Of a DNA stretch of 64,000 nucleotides, positions 3,846 through 47,286 are shown piece after piece. This stretch comes from Himantopus leucocephalus (taxonomy: Eukaryota; Chordata; Aves; Charadriiformes; Recurvirostridae), in assembly GCA_003993805.1 (NCBI GenBank), contig RSEF01000006.1, forward strand, positions 23,870,151-23,934,150, read 5' to 3'. Under the pieces are notes generated by a model. That model ran no database searches. It worked only from the letters and a program-made list of their open reading frames with translations, and was not told the origin of the DNA. The position numbers and the translations under genes were made by a program. The first letter of the stretch is position 1. Each line of letters opens with the position of its first letter.

Positions 3846-5474
3846 CAGAGGGGGTACCCCCTTATCAACCTCACCATCCCCTGCTCCTTCCCCTGTGCTC
3901 TTCCCTGCTAGGACCACAAAGCCAGTCCCTGGCCAGGAACAACCCTGGTCTAGGGGATGTCCCCCTGGCCAGGCAGTGTCCCTCACCACCACCCAGGGCC
4001 ACTAACCCCACGGCTGGCTGCCTGTGGCTGGTGCCAAGCGGCTGCGGCTTGCTGCCAGCGGTCCCCAACTGGCCAGGGCACGCTGGCCCTGACCTGGCTG
4101 ACCCCATGCATGCAAAGGGACTGGGCCAGCTCTGTAGCAGTGTGGGCCAGTAGCCAGCCTACCAGCCACCGCAGCTGCAGTTGCCATGCTGGGGTTTCCC
4201 AGGCTGCCCTGGCAGCTTCCCAGACCCAGGAACTGGGATGGGGCCGCTCTGCCCCTCAAAGCCCTTGCTCGTGGGCACAGGGTGGGGACACAGGGGACAC
4301 CGTGCCCTTGCTCTCTGTGTTTCTTTCCTCCTGTGGTTTCTAGCAATTTTTTTTTAAATGAAATAAATGGGAATATTCACCACTGACCCACGCTTTGTAC
4401 AGCCCAGCCCCAGGGAAGACAACTACCGGGCAGTGCCACCCCTCTCCTTGCACACCCCATCCTGTCCCCACCTTGCTGGCAGACACTGGGATGGGGGGCT
4501 TCCAGCACCCACCTTGGCCCTGCACAGTTGGGACAGGCTGTGTTGTACCCACACGTGACAGTCCCCACACGTGGAGGAGCTGCCGGGGATGGTGGTGACG
4601 CACTGGGGTGGCCTGAGGCCGGGGGCCGTGGCAAGGTGCGTGCCGGCAGAGGCTCACCCTGCCGTGGTTCAGGGGATGCTGGAGAGTGGGGAAGATGCTT
4701 TCCACATGAGAACAGCTTCATGCCCTGAAGTTTCCACTGGCCAAGCCACGAGTGGCCGGGAGCGGCGGCCGAGACGGCTCACAGCTGGCAGCGCCGCCGG
4801 CACAGGGTCATGACCGACTGCACTGCCGCCAAGCTGGGGGACAGCCAGGGGACACGGGCAGCCACATGAGCCCTTCAGCGCAGGCTGGGGTGAGGCAGCC
4901 ATGACCAAAAACACGCAAACCGCTGGCAGGGGTGGCAGAAAAGCACTGTCCTCATCCCCACCTGCTGTGAAGGGCACGGGAGCCCCACAAACCATTACTC
5001 CAAGAGTTCTGGGGAGCTACCGGGTGGGAGTGCTGGGGCACACAGAGCTGTTTTTCAAGGTGCTCAGAGAGGATGCAGAGCAGAGGAGGCAAAGCCAGGT
5101 CCCAGCCGCCCGCCCGTGCCCCCACCCCGGGGCAGGGCAGGAAGCCCCCAGCCCGCCCGCGCCGGCAGCGCAGCCACATCACAGCCCCGCGCGGGGCTGG
5201 GAACGTGGCCCTGCCCGCGCACCGACAAGGGCTCTGCTGTTCGGGGCCGCAGCTGCTCTGCGGAAGTAAACAGGGTCCCTGCCAGCACATTCCTGCCCGC
5301 CGCCCTGCCCGAGCCCTCCTGCCTGCACCCCCCACCCACCCACCGGGGACACCCACCACCTGGGAGGGGTGGACATCCCCATGGCAGCAGGGGGGGGCCA
5401 TGCGTGGCAGCCCCCAGCATGCACACCCTTCCCTGGCACGCAGGGGCACGGAGAGCCACAGCCCAGCCAGGAAA
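3846..5474. other. Intergenic spacer between converging LOXL4 and R3HCC1L
   Basis: GC-rich sequence without a gene. The only notable elements are the AATAAA at 4362-4367 and an A/T-rich cluster at 5471-5507 with plus-strand AATAAA at 5474, 5479 and 5501 and a minus-strand signal at 5490-5495. Open frames here are uninterrupted only because of base composition. Confidence 0.6.
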
Positions 5475-30700: not shown

Positions 30701-33700
30701 CCATGCAGCTGCGACAGCTTCCTTTGCTCACTGGCAGGGCACACAGCATGGGGACCGTCTGGCAGTGGGACCATTCTCCCCTATACCCATGCCAGTGCTG
30801 GGGGAGGGGGGGATTGTGTCCTGGCTCCCCAGGAAGCAGGGACAGCCCTACCCAGGGGGATGGCATGGCCCCATGGAGCAGTAGCCCCCGCGTGGTACCC
30901 CAGCCATCCCTCCAGCCTGCAAGAGTGGGACAGGCTGATCTTGCTCCCAGCTAGAGTGCTGGCACGTGGGTTTGTGCCCACAGCCCAGGGACACACAGCT
31001 CACTGCTGGGTTTTTTCCCCTCTGGAGGGGACTTCCTGGCCTGTGGCAAGGGCTGGCTGTCCTAAGTGCCACCTTGCTTGTCACCCATGCTACAGCCAGG
31101 TCAGAGCCAGCTCCAAAATCTCTGCAGCCCTGCCAGCAGTGCTGGCAGATGCTGTCCTCCGCAGTCCAGGTTAATTGAGCCTCTCCTCCCAGGCTCCCAT
31201 TCCTCCCAGCATCTCCTTCCCGTGACCACATCCCCGTGCAGGCACCCTTGCCAGCCAGCCTGGAAGGAGCTCACCCTGCAGAGCCCCTGGGAGAAACAGT
31301 GCCAGCAGGGTGGGGGAAGTGAGACACACAGGAGTCACCTGGCAGAGTGTCCCCATGTTCTCCCCGTGGCCTTCCCCAGCTCTGGAAGGACCCAGCTGGA
31401 CAGGGGATGAGCTCCACAGCCGGGCGACTGCCTGCCTCCTCTGGCCCTGCCAAGGGAGCAGTGATTGGCATCATGACTTGCCAGGAGCTTGGGTGCCGGC
31501 CGCCCCTTGGGGCAGGGTGCGCTGGGGCTGAGCCCAGCTTCGTCAGCACCCCACAGCCCTCCTGCCGCCTCCTGGGTCCCTCCCATGGGATGGGCTCCCG
31601 ACAGCCCTGCTACTGCTCAGCCCTGGCTCCCAGCTCACTGGGGTACGGTCCTGTCCCAAGGAAACCCCGAGGGTGAGCTGCAGCCGGGAGGGTCTGTGCG
31701 TGGGGATGACAAAGCTGAGGCTGTGCCCAAGGGTCTCGGGGCTGGTGGGGTGGCACAGGCTGGGGTGGATGACAAGGGGTGGAAAGAGCATCTCCTGTGC
31801 AAGGGCGGTGGGGATGCTTGGGCACAATGGAGCAGGGTTTCCTCCTGGAGCTGATGGGCTGCAGGTCTCTCCCAGGTGCCCAGGATGCTGGCGCTGTGCC
31901 TGCTGTCCCTGGCCTGGCTCAGTGAGGGCTCCCAGCGCAGCGAGCCCATGTTCACGGCCGTCACCCACCGCCTCCTCCCACCTGACTACGACAGCAACCC
32001 CACACAGCTCAACTATGGCGTGGCTGTCACCGACCTGGATGCCGATGGTGACTTCGAGATCGTGGTAGCAGGGTGAGTGGTGCACCCAGTGCCTCGGTGG
32101 CAGTGGGACCTGGTGGCCCTGCAGGGCCAGGAGGTCCTCACTCCTCTGTGGGCATGTGGCCGGCTGGGGGCATGCACAAAGGTGGTGGGGTGGGGGTCTG
32201 CATATACCCACATAGGGTGTTGATGCCAGCTGCGTGCCTGTGCGGGGCCACGTGGGTGCCCCGATCCCAGCCCTGGAGCCAGGTCCCCCTTGTGCGGGGC
32301 GGTGGCAGCTGCCCAGTGGCCGGGGTCCACCCTGCAGTGCAGAGCCAGCGTGTCACCAAGCCGGCTCGGCTCCGCTGACAGGACTCAGCGCTCTCCGGAG
32401 ATTCGGTTAATTGGCTGGAGGTTTTTTATAGCCCTTTATTGGAGTGATGGCTCGGAAGGGCTGGCAGGAGCCGGGGAGGCAGGGAGCTGTGCGCTGGTCT
32501 GCCAGCGCCCAAGTTGGGCTGGACACAGAGCAGCTGCTGCCAGCGGGTTCGGCCCTGGCGGGGGGACAGCAGGGACAACGGCACAGGCTCTGTGTGCCTG
32601 TGCTGGCATGGCTGTGGGCTGCCAGCACAGCGTGTCTGTGCGTGTGCCACCATGCTCACCCCCGAGGGAGGCTTGCTCACACAGGTGTGTTCACCTGGAG
32701 GGGACCCCTCACCCCCAGAGAACCCATCTCGGGGGGGCTGCAGGAGCCAGGGCACCACGGTGGCAGGCGGAGTCCAGCCCTGCCACTGCTCTGAGCATCA
32801 CCCTGGGGCAGCAAACCACGGGCAGCACCGGGGAACCCCCAGAGGGGCCCAGGCCACCACTGCCAGCCGGGCTGAGCCAAGCAGCCAGCCGGGGTTTTGT
32901 AAGCGGCCACGGTGCCCGTTGTATAACTTGTTTACTGGTGCACCGGGCAGAAGCAGGTGGGGAGCCTGTGGGGAGCAGCATGCCGAGAGGATTTGCCTTG
33001 CGTGCCGGTTTCCCTGCCCTGGGAAAGAGCTGCAAGCATGAACCTGTGCCCCATCCTGCCCCGCCAGCCACCCAGCCCCTGCCCTGGCACTGCCCTGTGG
33101 TACCCAGGCCAGGTAGACACAGGATGCCCAACATGGGCTGGAACAGGTCCAGGCTGAGCCCTCCCCATTGGCAGCCGGGAGCCAACCCTCATTCAGGAGC
33201 TGAGGGCAGCCCGGGGTCCCTGGCCCCCATGGACCATGCAGCTCTCGGCTGTGCCCATCATGGGGAAAACCTGATGTCACACCCGGTGCCCCCTGAGGGA
33301 TGGGGGCTTTCATCCTGTCCCCAAGCCTTCGGGAGCCATCGTCCCTGCTTGCACCCACAGGTACAATGGCCCCAACCTGGTGCTCAAGTATGACAAGGCA
33401 CGGGGACGGCTGGTGAACGTGGCGGAGGACGAGCGGAGCTCCCCGTACTATGCGCTGCGGGACCGGCAGGGCAATGCCATCGGTGTGACAGCCTGCGACA
33501 TCGACGGGGATGGCCGTGAGGAGGTCTACTTCCTCAACACCAACAACGCCTTCTCTGGTGAGCCCTGCTGGCAGCTGTGCCCTGAGGCCTGGGCGCAGGG
33601 GGAGCTCCCGGCATGGCCGCCCGCGACCTTCAGCGCGTGAGGGATGTGTGCGGGCTGGAGTTAATTTCTCAGTTGAGTGGCTCCATTGATTGATGGCAGT

Positions 33701-36700
33701 GCAGGCGGGACGCTGAGCCCAGCCAGCCGCCGAGTCAGCACTTCCAGCTGCCCATCGCCCTCCCTGTGGCACCCCGAATGGGACGGCAGCTTCCCCGACA
33801 TCCCCGGGGCCACCCTGCCACAGGGACCCTGCGCTGCAAATCCCAGCTGTGCCCTGCAGCAGCTGTGTCTCTCTGTGCCATGGCTCCCTCGTGCCTGCTG
33901 GACCAAGCCAGGTCTAATCCTGCCCTGCTGGTGCTGCTCCAGCTCCCAGGATGTCTGTCGTGGAGGGGGGAGACCCACATGCCCCAGCCCAGCACTGGGC
34001 ATCCCCAGAGCTCCCTGGGTCAGTGGTCCAGCCTAGCTCTGCTCTGTGTTCCTGTCCCACTGCCTTGACCTCCAAGCAATGGATCTGTCTTCCTGATGCT
34101 CCTAATTACCCGGGCTGGCAGTGACCGCCGGCACACCTGTCCCTAAATCAGACGCTGCCATCGGCGCTGTCACGGGCAGTGCGGCTCGCTGCCTGTGCCT
34201 GGCACTGCATCGATTTTTTTTTACCTTCCCAGGGATGATCTACGGGCCTGTGCCCCATTGGGACACATTTTACTTTAATGAGTTGATTCTTCTGCGTGTC
34301 TCCTGGCGGCTCTTAAGGGTCACGGGGGCTCTTGCAGCAGCAGCTCGGCCCCACGGCACTGCTAGGGACTGTGGGGGACAGAGCAAGGGTTTGGGATGCT
34401 CTGGGAAAAGGGTACCCCTTCCACAGCCTCCCTTTGCCGCAGGGCACCCTCCTCAGGAGGAGGTGGGATGCTTCAGGTCTCTGACCCGTGCCTTTCCCCC
34501 CCCCCCCTCCCCAGGCATGGCCACCTACACGGACAAGCTCTTCAAGCTCCGCAATGGGCGCTGGGAGGACCTCCTGAGCGACGAGGTGAACCGGGACGTG
34601 GCCAGCCGCTTTGCTGGGCGCTCCGTCGCCTGCGTGGACCGGACGGTGAGCAGGCAGGGCATGGCGGGCAGGGGGCACTTCTGCTCCTTTCCCACCCACC
34701 CCGCCCCCGTGCCCCTCCAGCCCTCCCCTGTGGGGTCCCGGGAGACCTCTCCCCTCGCCTGGGCACCAGCCCCATCCCACCCCCTGCCGGGGCTGGGGGA
34801 TGCTCCCCAGCAGCCTGTGGCTGTCAGGGCTTGCAGCCCCCCCAGCCGTGGGGACTGCGGGCGCCTGTCCACACGGTTGCCGCCAGCTGATAAACGTGCC
34901 TGTCGAGGTGATTTATGTTCCTGTCACCTGCTCTTTCTTCTTCCTCCTCCCCCAGTGGTTTGTTTCCAAACGATTATCACTAAATCAGGGTCCAGCTGCT
35001 GCACGGGACAAGGGGGGTGGTGGGGATGGGGTGGACCTGGCACACTGGGGATGCTGGGGGGGCGGAGTGCCCTGTGCCAGCACCCTGAGCCTAGGGACTG
35101 CACAGAACTTGGAGGCACGTCCCCAGGAATCCACTCCTGGGATGCTTTTCACCATGGGCTTTGCAGAGTTCTTGCTCTGCACATGGTAGCAGTTGCTGCT
35201 CCCACGGAGCCGTGAGAAAATCCAGCCCCACAGCAGGGATCCTGTGGTCCCTATGGAGTCAGGTTTTGGGTGGGCGGGTGCTGAGGAGGTACCGCCGGCC
35301 GCAGGGCTCCGGCAGGTACTCCATCTACATCGCCAACTACGCCAGCGGCAACGTGGGCCCCCACGCCCTGATCGAGATGGACGTGGCTGCCAGTGACCCT
35401 GCCCGCGGCGTCGTGGTGCTGGTGGACGTGGCTGCCCAGGCTGGCGTCAGCAAGTACACAGGTACCTGGCTGCCGTGGCCCCACGGAGGGGACGGGGCAC
35501 CGCTGGGCACGGCGAGTGTTGGGACCCCATGGCAGGCAGGGCAGCACCAGTGGCAGGCAGTGGCCCGTGCCACGCGTTAGGCTGCCTGACTGCCCCATCT
35601 AGTGGCAGCCCCATGGCCCATGGAAGGGACCGGGGCCACGACATGCTCACCCAGGACCCTTGTACCCACCATCACCCTGCCCGGCAGCCGGGCTGATCCC
35701 TCCGGAGCCCACAGCATCCGCAGGGCTGGCAGCACGGCATGGGAACGTGGGCATGGAGGTACGGCAGCGGAGAGCACCCCACCACCATGGGGACCGCTGC
35801 CGTGCCCCGTCTCCCCAGCGGTAAATTGTCACTAATTAGGAGTGTTGTCACCATGGCAATGGCAGTGATTAGGGTTGGGAGTGACACAAGCGGCTGCCAG
35901 GCCCAATTAGCTCCTGATGAGAGGGACTGAAGGAGGGAGGTGGGTGAGGAGGGGACACCGGGGATCTTAGGAGCACGGGGTGGGCAGCGCCGAGGGGGTG
36001 TGGGGGGCATTAACCCCCCTGGGGCAGGGTGCCAGCTGTCCCCTCAGCACCAGGCTGCTGTCCCCAGGGGGGCGTGGAGTGGCTGTGGGCCCCATCCTGA
36101 GCGACAGCGCCTCTGACATATTCTGCGGTAACGAGAACAGCCCCAATTTCCTCTTCCACAACCGGGGGGACGGGACATACCAGGACGTGGCAGCTGCCGT
36201 GGGTGAGTAGGGGGACCAGGGGGAGGACCCAGGTATTGGGGTCCCCAGGGCAGGGCTGTCTCTGCCTGCCCCTGCCTGCCCGGGCAGGCTGAGCACAGGG
36301 TGGAGGGACAGCCCCGGGGACGCAGAGCCCCACTGACTGCCGGGGGTGGCTGAGGTGCACCAGGGCATCCATCAGGGCAGGGATGCAGCCCTGCGTGGGG
36401 AACACCTGTCTGGGGACCACAGGGCACATCCTGGGAGGCATCCCGGGGAGACGGAGGCAGGGAGGGGGTCCCGTCTCCCCCTGTCTCCTTGCGGCTCCCC
36501 AGGGCTGGATGACCCCTACCAGCACGGACGTGGTGTGGCACTGGCTGACTTCAACCGTGATGGCCGGGTGGACATAGTCTATGGCAACTGGAACGGGCCA
36601 CACCGCCTCTACCTGCAGAGCGGGGCCCCCGGCCGCGTCCGATTTCGGGTGAGGGCTGGGGCTGGGACACCCCACACCCCCTCCCACCAGCTTTGCTGAT

Positions 36701-39700
36701 GAGCATCCTTGGCCAAGGGGCCTGGCTTCACCCAGATTTGGCTTTGAGCTCCAGTTCCCATCAGGAAGGGAATTTGGAGAACCAAAGCGGGACCTGGTGT
36801 CCTGCTCCCCGTACCCGGTGTCATCCTGTGCCCATCCCTTGCACAGGACATCGCCACCCCTAAGTTCTCCATGCCATCCCCCGTCCGCACCGTCATCGCA
36901 GCCGACTTTGACAATGACCAAGAGCTGGAGGTTTTCTTCAACAACATTGCCTACCGCGGCTCCTCCGCCAACCGCCTCTTCCGGTAGGAGCCCAGCGGGT
37001 ACCGGGGGGGCCGAGCAGCCCTCACAGCACAGCCAGGCTCACGGGGCTCCTCTCCGGCAGTGCCACTGCTCGGGCTCGGCTAATAAAAGGCACCGTGACT
37101 GAGCCCTTCCCGGCATCATTACCAGCCGCTGCGATCGTGCCTGCAGCAGCCCCCGGGGTCCCCGGCACTGCTGATTAGCAGCCGTGTGGAAGCTTGTTCA
37201 TGGCTCCTGTTAATTGTGGGGGTCAATTCCTCATTACCGCTGCGTGTCATGTCCTCACCTGGCATGTGGGGTGGTGGGAGTTGGTTGTCCCTGAATGGTG
37301 CTGGTTGCCATGGGTGAGTGGGGGGCAGTGGTGTGGTGGGGAGGCCTGGGGGGAGGGGGGGGTTTCCCATCCCAGAGGGATGTGGCAGTGTTTGGAGACC
37401 GCGCTGCTGCTCGACAGTGCAGTCCCACAAGAGCCAGGCTCTCATGACATCCCTGTCACCCCTCCACGGAGCAGGGATGTGAGGTGCCAACAGGCAGGGG
37501 CCAGTCCCGTCCCCCATCCACCCTGCAAAGCCACCAGCATCACCACCAGGGCTGTCACCTCTCTGCAAGGCTGCTCAAGGGGGACAGGGAGCTGCCGGGG
37601 GCCACAGGGGCTGGCACTAACACCCTGTCTGTGCTCCGCAGGCTTGTCCGCAGGGAGCACTCGGATCCCATCGTGGAAGAGCTGAATCCAGGGGATGCAC
37701 TGGAGCCTGAGGGACGGGGCACGGGTAAGTCCCCCCAGTCCTGGCAGGGGCAGCCCGTGCTGGGGGTGTGCCACAGCACTGGCTGGCACCCTCCGTGCCT
37801 GGGGATGCTGCATGGTTCATCACCTGCCCATTCACCACCAGCTCACTGCAGCCCCCATGACCCAGTACTCTCCACCTGTACCCAGCTAAGGGTGCCATCT
37901 CCAGTTGTTCCCCAGGGCTTTGCTCCTGGGGAGCTTCTTCCTGGGTTCCCACTGTTCAAAGCCAACCTCTGTGTTTGGGAGTGGGGCAGGGAGCCTCCTG
38001 TGTCTCACAGCCCCCCAGGCACTGCCTGCCCCTGTCCCCCCACTGCCCGGGGAGCTGACCCACCTGATTGCAGGGTGACAGCCATACAGGGCCCCTAATG
38101 CCTGCACTGGGCTCACCCCATCTTCCCTAATGCCCCTGTATCACTGGGAGTGCTACTGGCAGCAGGGTGTAGTGCCTAAAGACATGGGGCCGGGCCCCAG
38201 ACATGACCTGATCCTGTCCTTGCAGGGGGTGCAGTGACAGATTTCGACGGTGATGGGATGCTGGACCTGATCCTGTCCCACGGCGAGTCCATGGCACAGC
38301 CAATCTCCATCTTCAAGGGCACCCAGGTGAGTCAAGCAGAGGGTCCTCACGTTGTGCCCATCCCTTCCATCTCTCACGGCTCAGCTTCCCTGCTCCCTCC
38401 CAGGGTACGGGCAACAACTGGCTGCGTGTCATCCCCCGCACCCGCTTCGGGGCCTTTGCGCGAGGGGCCAAAGTGGTGCTGTTCACACGGCGCAGCGGAG
38501 CCCACCTGCGCATCATCGATGGCGGATCAGGATACCTCTGCGAGATGGAGCCCGTGGCGCACTTCGGACTGGGTGAGCCAGAGGGGTAAGGGGCTACCTC
38601 CACCCCCAGTCCTCCCCGGCACCCCCTTTGATGGGCTCCTGAGCCCTGCACCCCATCCTGGTCAAGGACCACTTCTGCTGCCCTGATGCCCTGCAGCATG
38701 GTAGTCATCCATGCCCATCACCCTGGGGCATGGGCTCCAGGGGAGGCTGCAGGCAGGGTACTTAGCCACCACAGCCCTGCTGCAACGGGCAGCTGCCCCC
38801 TTCCCCACCCCCTGCCTGCCACTTTGCCCAGGCACCAGGGCTTTCCCTGCCCATTAACCCTCACCTGGCTGAGCGTGGCCAGCAGCAAGCCTGCAGGGGT
38901 GTCCCTGCCCACTGGGAAGGCAGCCCATCATCCACATGCACCCCTTGGACTGCATCCCTGTGCATGGGCTGTCAGCACAGGCACCTCGGGAAGCAAGGGG
39001 AGGCTTTGCCCCTCCATCCCTACCACCACCACCCCCACCTCCTTTCAGCCCCTGTCCGTCCCGGAGAACCCCCCTCTGACAGGCTGCCCGCCTGCAGGGC
39101 ACGACGAAGCCAGCAGCCTGGAGGTGACCTGGCCGGACGGCCGCGTCATGGTGCGAGCTGTGGACAGCAGTGAGACCAACTCCGTCCTGGAGGTCCCCTA
39201 CCCTCTGGACGTGGAGGAGCCACTCATGCCTGCCCCACTGGAGGTGAGGGCCGAGTGTGGGCATGGAGCGGGGAGGCTTTGGGGGCAGGAATGAGGCGCT
39301 GGGCTCTGCTGGCTCGGTGGCTGCCCAGGGCTGATTCCTCCCCATCCTGGCGGTCTCCGCTTCTCCCCAAATGCAGTGCGGGCAGGGATTCTCCCAGCAC
39401 GAGAACGGACGCTGCGTAGGTGAGTGGTTGCTGAGGGCACAGCCGCGCCTGCACCTGGGATGCTGCAGCATGGCCCGGTGGGCACAGCGGGGGCACGAAG
39501 GCAGCAGCCAGGGAGGTGGCTGGGCATGCAGGCAGGGATGCTACGTAGCTCAATGCAGGGTACGGCTGCCTGCCCAGCACGGGGCATGGGAATGGGGACA
39601 GCAGCATGGCTCCGGAGGGGACCCACGGTGTCACAGGGAGGGGGTAGAGTGCTGTGCTGGGGGTGGGAGGCATGGCTGGCACGTGGCAGGCACTGCGCTA

Positions 39701-40409
39701 GAGCCACAAGCGATGGAGGGGCAGCGGGGATGTGACAGGGTGGCCATGCCATGTCCCTCCCAGGCAGAGGCATGGCTTGTGCATGGCTACCTCTGGGGGT
39801 GGGGGTGGGGTGTGTGTGTCACCCAGCATGTGCAGGGGAAACTGGAGGGGCCAGGGGCAGCAGCCCCAAGCTCCCAGCCCAGCCATCCCACCAAGGCCTC
39901 TCTGCTTGCAGACACGGATGAGTGCACCGAGTTCCCTTTCGTCTGTCCCCGGGACAAGCCCGTCTGCATCAACACCTACGGCGGGTACCGCTGCCGCAGC
40001 AACAAGCGCTGCAGCCGGGGCTTCGAGCCCAACGAGGATGGCACGGCTTGCGTGGGTGAGTGACAGCGGGGATGCCCTGACCCTGTGCGGCAGCAGCCCC
40101 AAAGCACCACCCTGGGATGCTGTTCCCCCCATCCCAAAAGCCTGGCCGCATCCTGCAAGCTGCCACGCAGCTGCCCAGCCCCTTGCGCCCTGGCTCTGTA
40201 TCTGTTCATCTTGCACCTTCTGCTGAGCCCCCACTGACTCCCCTTCTCTCTCTCTCTCTCTTTCTGTTTTTCCTCCTCCTCTCCTTCTCTGTGCAGCTCA
40301 AGTGGCCTTTTTTGGGGGATACCCCTCCGTCGGGAGCTGGCCCGGGCCCCCCCATGGTGCCCTCCTCCCTCTAGTCCTTGGACTCTGCCTTTGCCTCTAT
40401 GCACTTTAA
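27735..40409 (+). CDS. CRTAC1: Cartilage acidic protein 1, constant exons plus B-type (membrane-type) terminal exon
   Basis: Secreted or surface glycoprotein of cartilage matrix; the B form, called LOTUS, antagonises Nogo receptor in mammals. Exons: 27735-27779, 31876-32072, 33361-33557, 34515-34645, 35305-35461, 36068-36202, 36503-36648, 36847-36983, 37642-37724, 38226-38326, 38404-38572, 39098-39243, 39377-39419, 39912-40055, 40297-40409. Phases agree throughout; 647 residues (human B about 645). A signal peptide begins at MLALCLLSLAW (ATG 31885), so the first short exon, 15 codons from 27735, is the least certain part. Then come FG-GAP/integrin-like repeats with calcium loops such as DLDADGDFE, DIDGDGREE, DFNRDGRVD, DFDNDQELE and DFDGDGMLD, a UnbV/ASPIC domain around NNWLRVIPRTRFGAFARGAK, and an EGF-like exon 39912-40055 (DTDECTEFPFVCP). 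Intron 1 contains an N gap. The gene is far shorter than the mammalian one. Confidence 0.93.
27958..28057. other. Assembly gap (100 N)
   Basis: Fixed-length run of 100 N in CRTAC1 intron 1, between G-rich flanks; the length is probably a placeholder. Confidence 0.97.
28058..31875. other. CRTAC1: CRTAC1 intron 1
   Basis: About 3.8 kb plus the gap, GC-rich. No coding exon or repeat family is recognised in it. Confidence 0.6.
32375..32460. promoter_or_regulatory. Candidate intronic regulatory block in CRTAC1 intron 2
   Basis: AT-rich patch with GATTCGGTTAATTGGCTGG and TTTTTTATAGCCCTTTATTGG (MEF2-like and TAAT-type cores) inside the 32073-33360 intron. Motif-based inference only. Confidence 0.25.
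34200..34315. promoter_or_regulatory. Candidate intronic regulatory block in CRTAC1 intron 3
   Basis: ATCGATTTTTTTTACC and ACATTTTACTTTAATGAG lie in an AT-rich island inside the 33558-34514 intron. No repeat or ORF explains it. A PBX-like TTGATTGATGG sits upstream in the same intron near 33690. Confidence 0.25.
35815..35935. promoter_or_regulatory. Candidate intronic element with RFX X-box-like and homeodomain sites
   Basis: Within CRTAC1 intron 5. GTTGTCACCATGGCAAT at 35844-35860 resembles an RFX X-box with a wider spacer; it is preceded by ACTAATTAGGAG and followed by CCCAATTAGCTCC. The clustering suggests an enhancer; not tested. Confidence 0.3.
37075..37250. promoter_or_regulatory. Candidate intronic element in CRTAC1 intron 8
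   Basis: Contains GGCTAATAAAAGGCACC, CATCATTACCAGCC, GCTGATTAGCAGCC and CCTGTTAATTGTGG within 180 nt, unlike the flanking GC-rich sequence. Inferred from motif clustering only. Confidence 0.25.
40297..40409 (+). CDS. CRTAC1: CRTAC1-B alternative terminal exon (hydrophobic tail)
   Basis: Acceptor TCTCTGTGCAG with a long pyrimidine tract (TC repeats from about 40240). Joined in phase 1 to the exon ending 40055, it reads V-AQVAFFGGYPSVGSWPG and ends GALLPLVLGLCLCLYAL, closely resembling the human B-form tail ending GLGLCLQLYAL. The hydrophobic end suits membrane attachment, possibly through a lipid anchor signal. AATAAA at 40889-40894 can terminate this form. Confidence 0.88.
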
Positions 40410-41226
40410 CCCCTGCCCGTAACGTGCCAGAGCAGCCTTGGCAGAAGGACCAGCTGGCCTCTGCCTGTCTCTCTCTTTCTCTCTCTTTCTCTCCATGTCG
40501 AACCACCCTGGAAGCGCTGGCTGTGCCCTGCCGGGGTGGCCGGCAGTGGGACAGGCACGGAGCCTGGCTGCGGGGGGCTCACCCCTTGCACCATGTCTGG
40601 GAAAGCAGTCCCGGGGCAGCGCCCCTTCGCTGGCACCTCCCCACCCGGTCGCTTGCTCCGTCGCCTCGATACCGTACCATGTGCCTGCTGGTTTGGCCCG
40701 CGACGTGTGTGCTTCGCCTGCCCCCTCCTCGCTGACGGGGACCCCCCTCCCCAGCCCCAGCAGAGGAGGTTCCCCTCGGGCCCTGCGGGGGAAGGCCCCT
40801 CCTGGTCTGTTTTTTAATGTATTGACCCCACTGTTTGGAGTCGGACCCTGCTCAGTCTTCCAGCCCCTCTCCCGGAGAACCCCCCCCAATAAACTATATC
40901 CTGTCTATTAGCCCAGCCTGCTGAGCTGTATGGGGCAGGGCTGCACCCATGCTTCTGCCAACCCTGCCCTGGGGCTACGCGGGGAAGGGGCTGCAGGGTG
41001 GGGAGCAGCCTCAGCATCCCCCCAACTCTCCATGCCCCGGGGCCAGGAGCTAGCTGGAGACAGCACAGTGGCCCCGTGCAGCTCTGCCCATGCCCATCCC
41101 TGATCCCAGCCCTCGCAGCACGGCCAGATGTGCAGCGCCGGAGGGGGTGGGGTGCAGCAGTGGTGGGGCTGTGCTGCCTTCCTGCCGTGTGCTATAACCC
41201 CATGCCACTCTCTTCTCCACCACCAG

Positions 41227-41882
41227 ACATCGACGAGTGTGCCCAGGGCTTGCACAACTGCAGCCAGCTCTGCACCAACACCCCCGGGGCACACGCCTGC
41301 CACTGCCGCCCGGGCTTCCGCGCCCTTGATCCCGCTGCCAGCCAGTGCCTGGGTGAGTACCTGCAGGCAGCGGGGCCAGCAGCCCGTGGCACTCACTCGC
41401 CAGCCACTGCCAGGTGCAGCCGTGCCGCCTTGGGCGCAGGGACGCTGTTTCCTGGGGTGTCCTGTTGTGCTCACAGCCCTGGTCCCGGCCAGCCCAAAAC
41501 ACGGAGGGCAGGATGGATGGACTGTGGCTGTGCAGGAGTTGATGGAGTGAGGAGGCATCTGCTGCCTGACAGTCTTGGGGACAAGCAGTGGCAGGACCAC
41601 TGCTCCATGGGTGCAGGCATTGGAGACGCCTTCATGTCCCAGCTTCACAAGCTGCCCCCACCGTGGCCCATGTCCCCTCCATCCCGTACCCTGCCTGTGC
41701 CAGATGAGCACCATGCCCTTTGCGCAGCTCTGACCCTCTCCCATTCTCTTCCAGATGTAGACGAGTGCCAGACACAGCCCAGCCCCTGCGACCACATCTG
41801 CCACAACAGCCACGGCTCCTTCCACTGCCACTGCCGCCAGGGCTTCTCCCTGGCTGCGGGCGGGCGCTGCCGGCGCAACTAG
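41227..41882 (+). CDS. CRTAC1: CRTAC1 alternative 3' end: two extra calcium-binding EGF modules
   Basis: Two exons, 41227-41352 and 41755-41882, both entered in phase 1, so the exon ending 40055 can splice to 41227. They encode VDIDECAQGLHNCSQLC and VDECQTQPSPCDHIC, each a cbEGF module with six cysteines, a D-[IV]-D-E-C start and an aromatic NxxGxxxCxC core, ending at TAG 41880-41882. AATAAA follows at 41953-41958. The predicted isoform is 694 residues. Such EGF tails are absent from the human A and B forms I remember. Alternatively these could be remnants of an EGF-bearing ancestral gene, but splice sites, frame, stop and polyA signal are all intact. Confidence 0.8.
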
Positions 41883-42124
41883 CCTGCCCCGGCACAGCTG
41901 GGTACCCCCTGCTCACCCCCAGCCCCGTGCTGGTTGCACCCAGTGCCAACTGAATAAACCCATTCCTGCACTACTTTCCCTGTGGGCCCCTGTCACCGGG
42001 GCCACGGGGCTCTTACCGTCCCCTCATGCACTGCCCCATCGCTCCCCCTTATTTTCCCCCATACTGCCCCTCCTTGTGGGGCTCAGTGCTCCCCAGTGTG
42101 CTGGGGGATGCCCAGCCCCAGCCC

Positions 42125-42148
42125 NCCCCCCCCCCCCCCCCCCCCCCC
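42125..42148. other. Single N followed by 23 C
   Basis: One ambiguous base abutting a C homopolymer, between the CRTAC1 and GOLGA7B polyA signals. True tract length is unreliable. Confidence 0.85.
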
Positions 42149-42179
42149 AATGCAGGAGGACACAGGGCAGGCAGCAGAA

Positions 42180-43538
42180 GATGAAGTGCAGGGTTTATTG
42201 AGGAAGGTCTCCATGCAGGGTGGCCCCAGCAGGAACGGCGGGGCAAGGGTCACCCTGCACGCATGCCATGACCAAGCCGAAGGGAGCCCCATGGGGTGGG
42301 GTCCTCCCTCCGGGACCCCAGGAGAGCAACACCATCTCGGTTCAGTCCTGCAACCAGGCAGGGGCTCTTGTTCCCAGGGTACTGGATGTCACAGGGACCC
42401 TCCTATTTCCCCGGCCCATGAACCCCCACACCCTGAGCCCAGGCGCCCCTCGGGGTTCCCAGCACAGGCCAGGCTGAGAATTGGGGTGCTGGTGGCAGAT
42501 GCATGCAGGACGTGTGGGCAGGGGAGGTCTCAGCAGCGGGAGAGGAAGGGTCCTGGTGGAGCTGCTCCCTGCATTGGGGCAGGTCATGGGGCAGAGCAGG
42601 CAGGGGGCTGCAGGCAGCCAGGTGCGGGCAGGCTCTGCTGGGACTGGGCAGGGAGCCTCGCTCACCCATGCCACAGCTCAGCCTCCACCATGCTGGGCCA
42701 CGCACGAGCCCAGGGCACGCAGCACAAGGGCAGGAGCCTGGTCAGCACTGTGCCTCCCTGCCCTGGGCACAGGGCTTGGGGCTGGGGAGCTTTCTGGGGA
42801 TGGCACTGGGTCAGGCAGGGAGCAGAAGCAAGTGCCCAGTGTTGTGGGCAGTGCTGATGGATGCTGCTGGTGAGGATGCCGCTGCCGGGTGGGTGAGGGC
42901 ACCTGGCCAGGGCTGGGGAGCAGCAACGGGCAGCGCGTGGGGCAGGGCTGGGGTGAATGCATGGCACCATCATGCAGATGAAGCAGCACCAGGGCTCTGC
43001 CAGGCTCTCTGAGCAGTGGGCACATGGCGGCTGAGCCCCCCCTGAAGCACCAACAGCGGGACGCCCCAGGGAGGGGGTGCAGCAAGGGCTGGCAGTGCAC
43101 ATGGGCATGGGGATAAGTGCGTCCCCTCCCTTAGTGCTTGCCTGGGGTTTTGCCAGTCCGGCTGCTCCCCAATGTACGGCACGCAGGGTGCTGCCAGCTG
43201 GGGCTGCCCACAGCAGGGCAAGCTCCTTCACTTGGGGCGGGGGCAGCAGCGCAGAGTGCCCCGGAGGGCTGCGGGAACCCCTTGGCACCGGTTTGGCTCG
43301 GTGGGAAGCACCTGGGACACCCCAGCACCAGCCCCTGCCCGCAGTGGGTCTGAGCAGGGGCAGAGCCACTGTGGGGGGGAACGGAGCAGAGGGGGGTGGG
43401 CAGCCCCGCTGGGCAGCCCCCGGCCTCCCCCTCCCACCCACCCTGGGCTCAGAAGCGCGTGCTCTGGTAGTGCAGCCTGCGGAGCTCGGAGAGGCCACTG
43501 TCCCGGCAGTACGAGTCCCTGCAGGGACTCCCTGCCAG
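42180..43538 (-). other. GOLGA7B: GOLGA7B 3'UTR and polyadenylation signal
   Basis: Minus-strand AATAAA is at 42194-42199 (plus TTTATT). The 3'UTR is about 1.35 kb and ends only about 235 nt from the CRTAC1 EGF-form polyA signal on the other strand. Confidence 0.65.
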
Positions 43539-43700
43539 TCACCGGCCCCCGGCCCCACCGCCCCCACCACCGCTGCTGCTGCTGGAGCTGCCGCTGCTGG
43601 AGCTGCCGCTGCTGCACCGGTCCTCGTAGATGGAGATCTCGATCTGGGCCCTGCTAAGGATCATCAGTGGGATGTGCCAGCTGCAAATCCAATTGCCTAG
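43525..43700 (+). CDS. CRTAC1: CRTAC1-A alternative terminal exon, antisense to GOLGA7B coding sequence
   Basis: Acceptor CCCTGCAG|GG at 43524/43525 (weak pyrimidine tract). In phase 1 from the exon ending 40055 it reads [17 protein letters not shown], then an Ala/Gly-rich run, then [12 protein letters not shown], and stops at TAG 43698-43700, giving a 668-residue isoform. This matches the human A-form tail (GQSPGPRP, poly-Ala, [12 protein letters not shown]); human A is about 661 residues. The last about 14 residues (after DLG) do not resemble the human end. Nucleotides 43539-43643 are also GOLGA7B coding sequence on the other strand. Use of this exon in this species is inferred from frame and similarity. 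Confidence 0.72.
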
Positions 43701-45785
43701 CACCCACTCCCACTGTCCGCCCACCCTTCACCCTTGTCCTCCCCACCCTGCACCCCGCTGCCCAGAGGATACAACCCTCATGCCACGCTCCAGGGGGTCG
43801 GTGAGCAGCAGCCCCCGCGGCGCATAGATCTTCTCGTTCTGTTCCTGGATGTACTTGGAGATCTTCTTCAGGACCTGCCATCACATGGAGGGACACTGAG
43901 GGCCTGCCAGCCCTGATGTCCCCCCCTGCCAGCCCTGATCCCTGCTCTGGCCTCCAGCCCCCCTCCTCCCTGCGCCATCCCTGTGCCCACCGCCAGGCCT
44001 GCAGCCATGCCTGTCCCCGAGCCCTCCCTGGGGCTCAGCACCTTCTCGTAGTGTGTCTCCATGCAGAGGAAGATGAAATAGGCAGTGGCGCAGGCCAGGC
44101 ACCCCTCCAGGTACGAGCTGCCCCCGATCTTCTCCGCCTCGGCGTAGAAGCCATTAAGAGTTTTCACAGTTTCCTCGAAGAGCTGCCGCTCAATCTAGAG
44201 CAGAAACTGGGGTGAAGAGGAGTCTGGCCAGAGGGTCACCCCCTGCACTGCCCTGTTCCCATCCCCAGGGGGACTTGGGGAGCACTTCTTGATGCCTCAG
44301 CTCCCTGGCCCCTGCCCATTGCCCACCCATGCCAAGACCTGCTGAGCCTGCAGCCCTGTAGCAGAGCCTGCTGGTCCGCAGGAGCACCCAAGCCCTTGCA
44401 CACCAGGCAAGGTGGCTGTGATGGCATGCACCCAGCAGCATCGACTGGCCCAGGGCCATACAATACCCTATGGGGACCCCATGACTTCAGACCCTTCTCT
44501 CCCCCAGACCCCCCACAGAGCACCGACATAGGGCACCTCCCACCCTGTTGGCCTGCCAGACTCCCTACCCGGCTCTCCAGCTCGGCGGGGAACTTTGTCT
44601 GGAACTGGCACGTGGTCCCTTCACTGTAATCCCGCTGCACGAAGACCTTGGTGGCCAGGGATGCACTACGCCGCAGCTCCTGCAGGCTGTGTACCTGGGG
44701 AACAGGGAGGTGAGCTGGGGGGGTGGCAGCAGGGGGGTGATGGGCACCCCTGATGTGGGCTGGGGATCCCGGGAGCAATGCCATTCACCCAATAATCAGG
44801 GCATCAGGGCTGCAGGCTCGCACACCCTGAGGAAGGGAGCCTCCAGCATGGGCTGTGCCATGCCCTGAGCACAGCCTGGTGCAGGAGATGCGAGGCCAGG
44901 GGTGGGAGGGGGATGGCAGCATGGCGAGGATGTCACGGCAGCATGTGCTCCCTGCCCCAAGCATGCTGCACGCTCAGGTATGTGTCCCTGGTGGGCCACA
45001 GTCCGGGGAGGGGACAGCCCCCTGTCCCCAGCAGCACCTCAGCGTGCAGCCACCCCACCAGCTCCCACGCAGGAGGGAAGCAAGCGGAGCAGGGGGCTGG
45101 CAGCAGAGGGTCTGCAGCGGCAGCGCAGCGGGGCAGCATGCTGCAGCAGGGCGGCTGCACAAAAGGCATCGGCAGCCCCGGCAGCGGGAGGTGCTCAGCC
45201 CAGCCCCGCCAGCCCTGGCACCCCCCGGGGTACGAGGGCCCACGCCAGCCCCCTGGGCTCTGGGCCGTGGGGAGGCTGCCGGAGGCTGGAGAGGAGGATG
45301 GGAGGATGCAGGGCCAGGCTGTGCCAAGGGCGGGTGTCAGACCCCTCCCTGTGCTTCCCCTTGGGTGACATGGTGCCACTCCTGCTGTGTACCCCACAGG
45401 ACCCTCTGCCTCTGTCCTGGGTCCCACCCGCGGCACCTGGGACGGGGACCCCCACCCCCATAGCCACCCCTCCTCCCGGGGCACCCCACCCCAGACCCAC
45501 GCTGCTCCCTCCAACACGGGCACCCTGCACCCATCCCCCCCCAGACACCCCACATACACACGGGCCTTTCTGCGCACACAGACTNNNNNNNNNNNNNNNN
45601 NNNNNNNNNNNNNNNNNNNNNNNNNNNNNNNNNNNNNNNNNNNNNNNNNNNNNNNNNNNNNNNNNNNNNNNNNNNNNNNNNNNNGGGGGGGGTGGGCAGA
45701 GCCGGGGAGGGGGGGGGGTGCTCCGCCGCAGCCCGCTGCCGGGGTGGCCCCCACCGTGCCGCCGCGCACCCACCTCCGTGGCCAT
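43539..45785 (-). CDS. GOLGA7B: Golgin subfamily A member 7B (5 coding exons)
   Basis: Accessory protein of DHHC palmitoyltransferases (GOLGA7/Erf4 family), Golgi and plasma-membrane associated. Coding order on the minus strand: 45785-45774, 44694-44569, 44194-44042, 43874-43773, 43643-43539; 165 residues against 167 in human. The first coding exon holds only M-A-T-E. The next reads [20 protein letters not shown] and [16 protein letters not shown]; then [20 protein letters not shown] with the cysteine-containing membrane-associating stretch [20 protein letters not shown]; then [20 protein letters not shown]; finally [10 protein letters not shown] followed by a Ser/Gly-only tail. The donor of exon 4, GTT|GTATCC, is atypical but is the only choice giving RVIEI as in the family. 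The Ser/Gly tail separates it from GOLGA7. Confidence 0.93.
45585..45684. other. Assembly gap (100 N)
   Basis: 100-N placeholder in GOLGA7B intron 1, just downstream (in gene direction) of the four-codon first exon. G-rich sequence abuts it on the right. Confidence 0.97.
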
Positions 45786-46400
45786 GGCGCGGCGATCGCC
45801 CGGACCGGGCCGGGCTGTGCTGTGCCGGGGGGAGGGCGGGGGAAGGGGGGGGGTAGGGGGAACGGGGGACACCGGCGCTGTCACCGGGGCCGTGCCGAGC
45901 GGCTCCGGGGGACCGGCGCTGTCCGCGGTGCTGCCGTGCCGAGCGGCGGAGGCGGGCCCGGCCGCCCCGTGTGCGCAGCCGCCCGGCCAGACACGGCCCG
46001 CCCCGAGGCGGCGGGGATGGGCGTCCCGCCGCTACCGGCACGGAGCCCCCGCAGGACGCGGCCCCGTTGCTGGGAACGGCGGTACCGGGATCCGACTGCC
46101 CCGGGGTTGGTCTCTGCGGGGGAANACCGGGATCCGACTGCCCCGGGGTTGGTCTCTGCGGGGGAAGGGGCGGGGGGCTACTGCTGGAGGTCCCGGTGGT
46201 CCAGCCGGCAGTGCGGGTACCGGGGTCCGGCTGCTGAGGGGATGCGCCTGGAGGTCCCCGGGGGGTGGAGGGGGTGTGGAACGGGCTGCCGAGGGGGTGC
46301 TGCTGGAGGTAGCCGTGGCGGTGGCCCGGTGGGGATGCGGGGGGGCCGGCGGCGGGGCTGGCAGCCTGCCGTGCCAAGGGGCCTCCTCTGAAGGTGTTTG
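45690..46400 (-). promoter_or_regulatory. GOLGA7B: CpG island, GOLGA7B promoter and 5'UTR
   Basis: CpG-dense sequence around and upstream (in gene direction) of the ATG at 45783-45785, with several GC boxes and no TATA box. The exact start of transcription is not visible. It includes the 41-nt duplication at 46084-46166. Confidence 0.55.
46084..46166 (+). repeat. Perfect 41-nt direct duplication around a single N
   Basis: 46084-46124 and 46126-46166 are identical, starting ACCGGGATCCGACTG, with N at 46125 between them. The pattern is that of two contig ends that overlap but were joined instead of merged. A real tandem duplication is less likely. Confidence 0.85.
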
Positions 46401-47286
46401 TTTGCGAAGGATTTGCAGCTGGCTGGAGCGGGTGCTGTGCTCCAGCGCGGGCGGACATCAAAGAGGAGAGCTAACGAATTCCCTGTTATCTCTGCCCATT
46501 GACAGCTCAATTAGAGCCGGAGAAATGCCAAACGGGAGGGGAACAGAGGCTCTCCCGGGAGGCGAAGGAGGGGGTGCTCACAGCTGGGGCCGGGGGGAGG
46601 TGGGAGGGATGGGGGTGGCTGGGCACAGGGCCCTGGTCAGGCAGGAGAGCAGCCAGCCCTTCCCTCAACACCTGGGCGATGCTGAAGGCAGCGCGGGGCC
46701 CTGCCAGCGTGTCTGCTCAGGCCGCTAACGCAGCACGGCCGGCTGCCTGCGGCACACGGGCCCGGACAAAACAGCGGCAGCTCCAGCTGATTCCCGCTCC
46801 CTGCCCTGAGCACTGGCCCAGGGCAGTGGGTGGCTGGTGGGCAGCCCTGGCATACTGGAGTGTGGCAGGGTTTGGGACCAGGGGACACATGCAGGCAGGG
46901 AGCTGAGTCAGAGGTGCATCTCCCCCCTGAACACAAAGCTACAGATCCCATAGCTTTTTTTGGGAAACCTGCTGCTCCTGGGGTCCAGAGCAGCCCTGCC
47001 AGCCCACACCCCAGAGCAGTGGGGTACACCCAGTGCCACAGAGCCAAAGGACCCCCATGTGTGAGGGGGGTGCTCTGCCATGTACACACACAAACATGCA
47101 GACAGATGCAGACATTTGTGCATGCACACATCTGCCTGCACCCCTGTGCACCCCCAGGCATGCACGTGTACGTGCTCACATGCCCAAGCGTGTCCCCAGA
47201 TGCCCCCAATACCAGGCCCTGAGTCCCGGCTCCTTCCCGTGCTGCTGTCACCGCCACGTCAGGCCTCGCCTGCCCGCGCCCTGCCA

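Follow-up and report, generated by a model that had tools for sequence, protein, structure and literature searches.

Organization of the CRTAC1-GOLGA7B locus

The window, by which we mean the whole 64,000-nucleotide stretch of Himantopus leucocephalus DNA that was analysed, contains a convergent gene pair, CRTAC1 on the plus strand and GOLGA7B on the minus strand. Thirteen coding exons of CRTAC1 were located within 31885-40055, with GT/AG at all junctions and consistent phases, and the product matches the Pfam families FG-GAP, UnbV_ASPIC and EGF_CA. The GOLGA7B product matches Pfam Erf4 with 119.6 bits and is 98% identical to the closest protein record among the best 120 of 832. The last coding exon of GOLGA7B (43542..43643, minus strand) has 34 codons, encoding 10 residues and a Ser/Gly tail. 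It is preceded by the exon VLKK..GMRV (43773..43874, minus strand), for which the phase-0 donor was placed by eye and the acceptor was scored, and is followed by the stop TGA and then CTG (TGA at 43539..43541, minus strand). The poly(A) hexamer AATAAA of GOLGA7B lies at 42194..42199 on the same strand.

The last shared exon of CRTAC1 (39912..40055, plus strand) encodes the first EGF domain and ends in a phase-1 donor. Beyond it we found three possible 3' ends, designated B, EGF and A, each with a phase-1 entry. The B terminal exon (40297..40409, plus strand) encodes the hydrophobic end ..CLCLYAL and has an AATAAA at 40888. The EGF end consists of a second EGF exon (41227..41352, plus strand) and a third EGF exon that carries the stop (41755..41882, plus strand), with an AATAAA at 41953; together they give CRTAC1 three EGF domains. 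The intron preceding the second EGF exon ends in a weak Rfam match to mir-1227 (41147-41220, plus strand; 30.4 bits against a gathering score of 70, E 0.03). Exon A, a terminal exon predicted in birds, lies at 43525..43700 on the plus strand, is open to the shared phase-1 donor through the acceptor ctgcag/GG and stops at TAG 43698-43700, giving a 58-residue reading. If the EGF end were used, about 200 bases would separate the ends of the two genes; only form A of CRTAC1 would run through GOLGA7B.

Mirrored coding of the CRTAC1-A and GOLGA7B tails

The sequence-only reading that preceded this analysis had placed the last 34 residues of GOLGA7B, on the minus strand, inside the terminal exon of CRTAC1-A, with the codons of the two genes facing each other exactly, middle base to middle base. 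Reading both strands of 43542-43643, with the GOLGA7B stop at 43541-43539, bears out both statements. It had also proposed a 12-residue CRTAC1-A string as a mirror of the GOLGA7B tail. The first 10 of these residues do lie opposite GOLGA7B codons, whereas the last two, L and G, lie opposite the GOLGA7B intron (cag, gcc). The mirror is thus an antisense coding-coding overlap of convergent genes, in which both strands are open and assignable to two different genes. By its sequence, exon A fits the hallmarks of CRTAC1 isoform A: GT..QSP..P, an Ala-rich run, APVLVDGDL and a phase-1 entry after the EGF exon. The open frame of exon A alone is unsurprising, because in this register the plus strand can acquire a stop only opposite the minus-strand Leu codons TTA and CTA or the Ser codon TCA, and the tail encodes its Ser by AGC and TCC. 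It is the recurrence of the fit in other species that goes beyond chance.

The cross-species fit was judged on proteins, by whether the residues are possible as a reverse complement. Seventeen A tails, comprising 12 of the 14 tail-bearing matches described below and 5 from a separate search, were compared with 99 GOLGA7B tails that were recognisable and of normal length among the best 120 of 832 proteins. The fit was full in 9 of the 17, 0.97 in 7 and 0.86 in 1 (killdeer, partial), as compared with maxima of 0.61-0.76 for shuffled tails (200 shuffles each); the best of the 99 GOLGA7B tails was chosen for each A tail, so that the pairing is a selected one, and the shuffles were built from that best tail. 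Full fits join bat to bat, seal to bear and opossum to opossum, with agreement in tail length, and the macaque and colobus A tails found their best fit in the rabbit GOLGA7B tail. On this protein-level fit, the mammalian A tail, too, is the antisense of the GOLGA7B tail.

The distribution of the A tail was examined in 103 CRTAC1-type matches, taken out of 7993 scored candidates sharing most words. The records are 90% cluster representatives, whose members may be hidden, and groups were assigned from record names; the sole fish noticed was a lungfish. The A tail is present in 14 of the 103: 12 mammalian records, one killdeer model that starts inside the exon and one contig ORF. The B end accounts for 38, the EGF exons for 36 and other ends for 15. 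By name, the EGF-type ends belong to birds, reptiles and frogs, with none among the mammalian records examined; the mammalian A end may have replaced the EGF end as the non-hydrophobic CRTAC1 form. The mammalian A-tail records are both eutherian and marsupial (the latter including P0122 and P0128), and 3 of the 12 come from one pangolin species. In Manis javanica (P0129-P0131), PAG is changed to PAR at the exon-A acceptor, which would break GCAG/G and be silent on the minus strand. In P0216, isoform X4 of Manis pentadactyla CRTAC1, the exon-A region is read in a different frame from the other A tails. On the GOLGA7B side, rodent tails are intact (e.g. P0036), and a Ser-rich tail is present in gar, lungfish, coelacanth, chimaera and bamboo shark. 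The earlier claim that the overlap is older than the bird-mammal split stands for the mirror in the DNA; the isoform is documented for mammals only.

Constraint on the core and use of exon A

Among 19 A tails, the 11-codon core shows 6 differing residue pairs, spread over 4 columns, and for these a one-base change is possible only at plus position 1, which is position 3 of GOLGA7B, with none at position 2; the pattern used to pick the tails, set after all 103 and all 25 ends were known, had already limited the residues at five of the core sites. The similarity of A tails ends at the edge of the GOLGA7B exon; past DLxL the ends diverge and the stops shift. Because the core replacements are silent in GOLGA7B, the A tail behaves as the mirror of GOLGA7B. 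The direction of the core constraint and the end of similarity at the exon edge both support the earlier view of the A tail as a by-product of GOLGA7B. Its further suggestion, that the tail arose by exonisation of antisense coding DNA with GOLGA7B as its keeper, fits the distribution, since a Ser-rich GOLGA7B tail extends from gar to bamboo shark and the A tail is mostly mammalian. Judged by the same records, the GOLGA7B Ser/Gly tail is older than the A tail. The Cys of EDRC is residue 141 as counted on GOLGA7B record P0015, and a published table of ZDHHC5 substrate sites in Golga7b includes C141 (PMC12147223).

That birds make the A form, as had been assumed, found no support. Apart from the killdeer model, the named bird CRTAC1 records examined end in B, in EGF or otherwise. 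For 11 kinds of poly(A) hexamer there was no plus-strand match between 41953 and 50797, that is, to about 7 kb past exon A, in a window with 256 undetermined bases. Many real poly(A) sites are without common hexamers. The exon-A acceptor is ordinary, with a score of 3.2 that is the sixth lowest of 19 and is reached by 16% of the 4901 plus-strand AG sites in the window. In mouse, 3' RACE of CRTAC1 yielded a B-type end (PMC4945026). In this bird exon A has a frame and an acceptor, but with the poly(A) signals on the B and EGF ends it is most probably cryptic or rare, and birds would appear not to use it.

It may be asked whether CRTAC1-A is instead an ancient functional isoform of amniotes, birds included, whose tail is maintained by selection on CRTAC1-A itself in addition to selection on GOLGA7B. 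Acceptor, phase and frame of exon A are intact in the window. The killdeer model P0223 bears an A tail, with an end, KDHQWDVPA, that resembles that of the window; the bird-like ORFs P0244 and P0245 retain acceptor and frame; the core is kept in these two and in P0222; and bird A isoforms are perhaps hidden by the 90% clustering. However, the named bird records with their B, EGF or other ends, the 7 kb devoid of poly(A) hexamers and the placement of core changes where they are silent for GOLGA7B and replace residues in CRTAC1 all speak against it. The tail ends also vary among the bird-like ORFs, and P0222 runs on without the stop of the window. We consider such an isoform unlikely and retain the reading of exon A as a mirror that is cryptic or rare in this bird.

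A conserved frame beyond the GOLGA7B stop codon

The sequence-only reading overlooked that a conserved block continues past the GOLGA7B stop. After TGA CTG the GOLGA7B frame is open for 29 codons (43452..43538, minus strand; LAGSPCRDSYCRDSGLSELRRLHYQSTRF), a candidate readthrough product, up to a second in-frame TGA at 43451-43449 on the same strand. Nine foreign plus-strand ORFs cross this block. In 8 of the 9 there are 29 codons, gapless, between two Ser, and in P0222 there are 30; a Ser lies opposite the place of the second TGA in all 9, so that the second stop of the other species would follow from the facing Ser (TCA would be TGA).

The changes within the block have a coding-like pattern on the GOLGA7B strand. 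One-base residue differences fall at plus position 1 (the GOLGA7B third position) versus position 2 in ratios of 11 to 2 within five mammal-type sequences, 7 to 3 for the window against P0246 and 1 to 1 among three bird-type sequences. The pooled third-position share, 19 of 25, has P of 0.0006-0.0073 at neutral shares of 0.42-0.50, and counting two double changes on both sides gives 21 of 29 (P 0.0009-0.0121); mutation models predict a share of 0.38-0.48, and the pairs are not fully independent. A pangolin DNA composite was inferred from two protein frames. Of the 20 bases that distinguish the window from this composite, 10 are third positions (binomial P 0.09); 6 codons are changed silently and 8 are replaced. 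The protein-similarity score is 109 in the GOLGA7B frame versus 76-94 in the other five frames. When the same changes were placed at random, P was at most 0.00075 for codons 13-29 under every one of the 16 base choices for the ambiguous sites of the inferred pangolin DNA, ranged from 0/4000 to 0.0145 for codons 1-29, and was 0.25 for codons 1-12 alone. A frame-0 coding signature thus runs up to the second stop, as seen in few sequences and with inferred pangolin DNA.

Coding on the opposite strand does not explain this signal. The antisense frame that shares third positions with GOLGA7B was considered as its source; its counts of silent (6) and replaced (8) codons are identical, its score is lower at 94 versus 109, and it is closed by a TAG in the window and in the pangolin composite. 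Plus-strand coding upstream of exon A was likewise rejected as the source of conservation, because the visible plus-strand changes concentrate at position 1, the position at which the exon-A frame itself changes. A search for the pattern of the extension end gave no match in viral_contigs and 6 prokaryotic contigs in genome_contigs, which were taken as chance.

Then, how might the extension be read? We propose tentatively, at somewhat less than even confidence, that bird and mammal GOLGA7B makes a second, C-terminally extended form through readthrough of its UGA. This form would carry 29 additional residues, starting with LAGSPCR in the window and ending with LRRLxYQSTRF. That end resembles a class I PDZ ligand (T-x-F) and would provide GOLGA7B, the partner of ZDHHC5, with a link of its own to PDZ scaffolds. 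The extension is accordingly presented as a candidate for conserved stop-codon readthrough, with translation a prediction from its pattern of change. Readthrough is favoured because in-frame acceptors are scarce past the stop, the third-position-sharing antisense frame is closed and no SECIS was reported. As to selenocysteine, which we rejected, the Rfam matches up to E 1 over 40000-46500 included no SECIS; the two matches obtained were both below gathering scores. The stop context in the window is UGA CUG rather than the efficient UGA CUA(G), which is the readthrough consensus, UGA CUU G being a low control (PMC4359377, PMC4132726). Since some published readthrough candidates are without the consensus context (PMC4359377), the off-consensus UGA CUG lowers the prospect of readthrough and does not exclude it.

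The block 3' of the stop could instead be a non-coding element of the 3' UTR, such as a hairpin or a site for a protein or small RNA. Directly 3' of the UGA lies a stable hairpin of 7 + 7 pairs (43503..43538, minus strand). A 37-nt piece, chosen once the folding was known, has -24.5 kcal/mol and z -4.96. The outer stem of the hairpin forms in the pangolin composite as well (z -2.07), where one A-U pair is exchanged for C-G by a double change. In view of the P of 0.25 for codons 1-12, this first part of the extension could be kept by RNA structure instead of coding. However, the coding signal is strongest outside the hairpin, in codons 13-29, under all 16 base choices; the block keeps its length in 8 of the 9 foreign ORFs and is one codon longer in the ninth; and the folds of longer pieces are no more stable than those of shuffled sequences (z -0.46 for the whole extension, -0.80 and 0.12). 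We regard a purely non-coding element as rather unlikely, and under the readthrough proposal the same hairpin, starting at the stop, may promote readthrough. The hairpin contains a perfect 18-nt palindrome, GAGTCCCTGCAGGGACTC (43513-43530), which lies on the exon-A acceptor, 10 nt 3' of the GOLGA7B stop, and is one of two in the window, the other being at 5182.

The extension might also be coding and be entered by alternative splicing. The Calidris pugnax GOLGA7B model P0081 ends in ..TTRVKESPCRDSYCRDSGLSELRRLHYQSTRF, which is not continuous with the Ser/Gly tail, and splices into the frame by another route. In the window, however, only extension codons 19 and 26 are preceded by an AG that could serve the phase-0 donor of the preceding exon as an in-frame acceptor beyond the stop; in a numbering of 65 codons that puts the start of the extension at codon 36, phase-0 AGs stand before codons 3, 8, 54 and 61. 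Five mammal-type ORFs have Val opposite codon 18, so that the two bases preceding codon 19 would be AC and not AG, and in the window continuing the preceding exon into its intron yields 14 residues and then a stop. Entry by splicing is in our judgement decidedly unlikely, which leaves readthrough as our proposed, if tentative, route.

Discussion

We think it probable that the locus is best explained by constraint on the last exon of GOLGA7B, which continues past its UGA, and by a mirror frame that is used by mammalian CRTAC1 and is cryptic or rare in this bird. Under this explanation, the GOLGA7B residues would fix the first and second codon positions and thereby force the opposite strand into an open frame rich in Ala, Gly and Pro, and the register would turn changes that are silent in GOLGA7B into replacements in CRTAC1. 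Mammalian CRTAC1 would use the mirror frame as an alternative last exon (15A in human, giving the form that lacks the hydrophobic end). The distribution of this exon suggests that it arose when DNA antisense to an older coding exon was exonised. On the GOLGA7B strand, constraint of the coding type would continue for 29 codons beyond the UGA, and the exon-A acceptor would be kept because of it.

The closest known likeness is TRalpha2 (THRA) and Rev-erbalpha (NR1D1), a mammal-restricted case in which an alternative terminal exon of one gene codes for protein opposite the coding end of its convergent neighbour (PMC3047299, PMC4569393). It also offers a caution for exon A in birds: marsupial TRalpha2 has splice sites that look competent, yet no such isoform was detected there (PMC3047299), while another study dates the onset of TRalpha2 splicing before the eutherian-marsupial split (PMC4569393). 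The overlap described here differs in that it involves other genes, that marsupials have the A tail and that the mirror frame is open even in birds. It spans all 34 codons of the last GOLGA7B exon in middle-to-middle register. For the same genes in human, one sentence states the overlap (PMC10477339), and the CRTAC1 ends 15A and 15B have been described (PMC4945026); the available parts of these two papers do not describe coding on both strands, the mirror or the GOLGA7B extension. In the open-access literature, to which our search was confined, we found neither the mirrored coding nor the extension described.

For the extension, the likeness is to the readthrough genes OPRK1, OPRL1, AQP4 and MAPK10 (and to SACM1L, BRI3BP and ACP2, which are untested to weak), with a UGA stop and coding-like conservation to a second in-frame stop (PMC4132726). 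Some of them share with GOLGA7B a predicted stem-loop near the stop (PMC4132726). GOLGA7B differs from them in its context, UGA CUG and not UGA CUA(G), and is a candidate predicted from sequence. It is absent from the seven human candidates named in the available part of PMC4132726 and has no mention in the main texts of PMC4132726 and PMC4359377. An insect readthrough scan excludes signals that lie opposite coding sequence (PMC5100048), and it is our guess that the annotated human exon A, as antisense coding, may have hidden GOLGA7B readthrough from such scans.

The extension ends in STRF, which fits the class I PDZ ligand pattern, S/T-x-hydrophobic. ZDHHC5, the partner of GOLGA7B, has a PDZ-binding motif and binds PSD95 (PMC12147223), and an extended GOLGA7B could tie the ZDHHC5 complex to scaffolds.

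The locus gives a clear-cut example of a known human protein whose tail is the reverse complement of a conserved exon of a second protein. Because the tail of CRTAC1-A mirrors the conserved exon of GOLGA7B, its conservation says little about a function of its own. If readthrough takes place, exon A begins inside the antisense of the extension, and one mammalian exon would face both the normal and the extended frame of GOLGA7B. If the extension is translated, GOLGA7B, an accessory of the palmitoyltransferase ZDHHC5, would exist in an additional, so far undescribed form whose end might bind scaffolds, and readthrough could escape scans where coding genes overlap in antisense.
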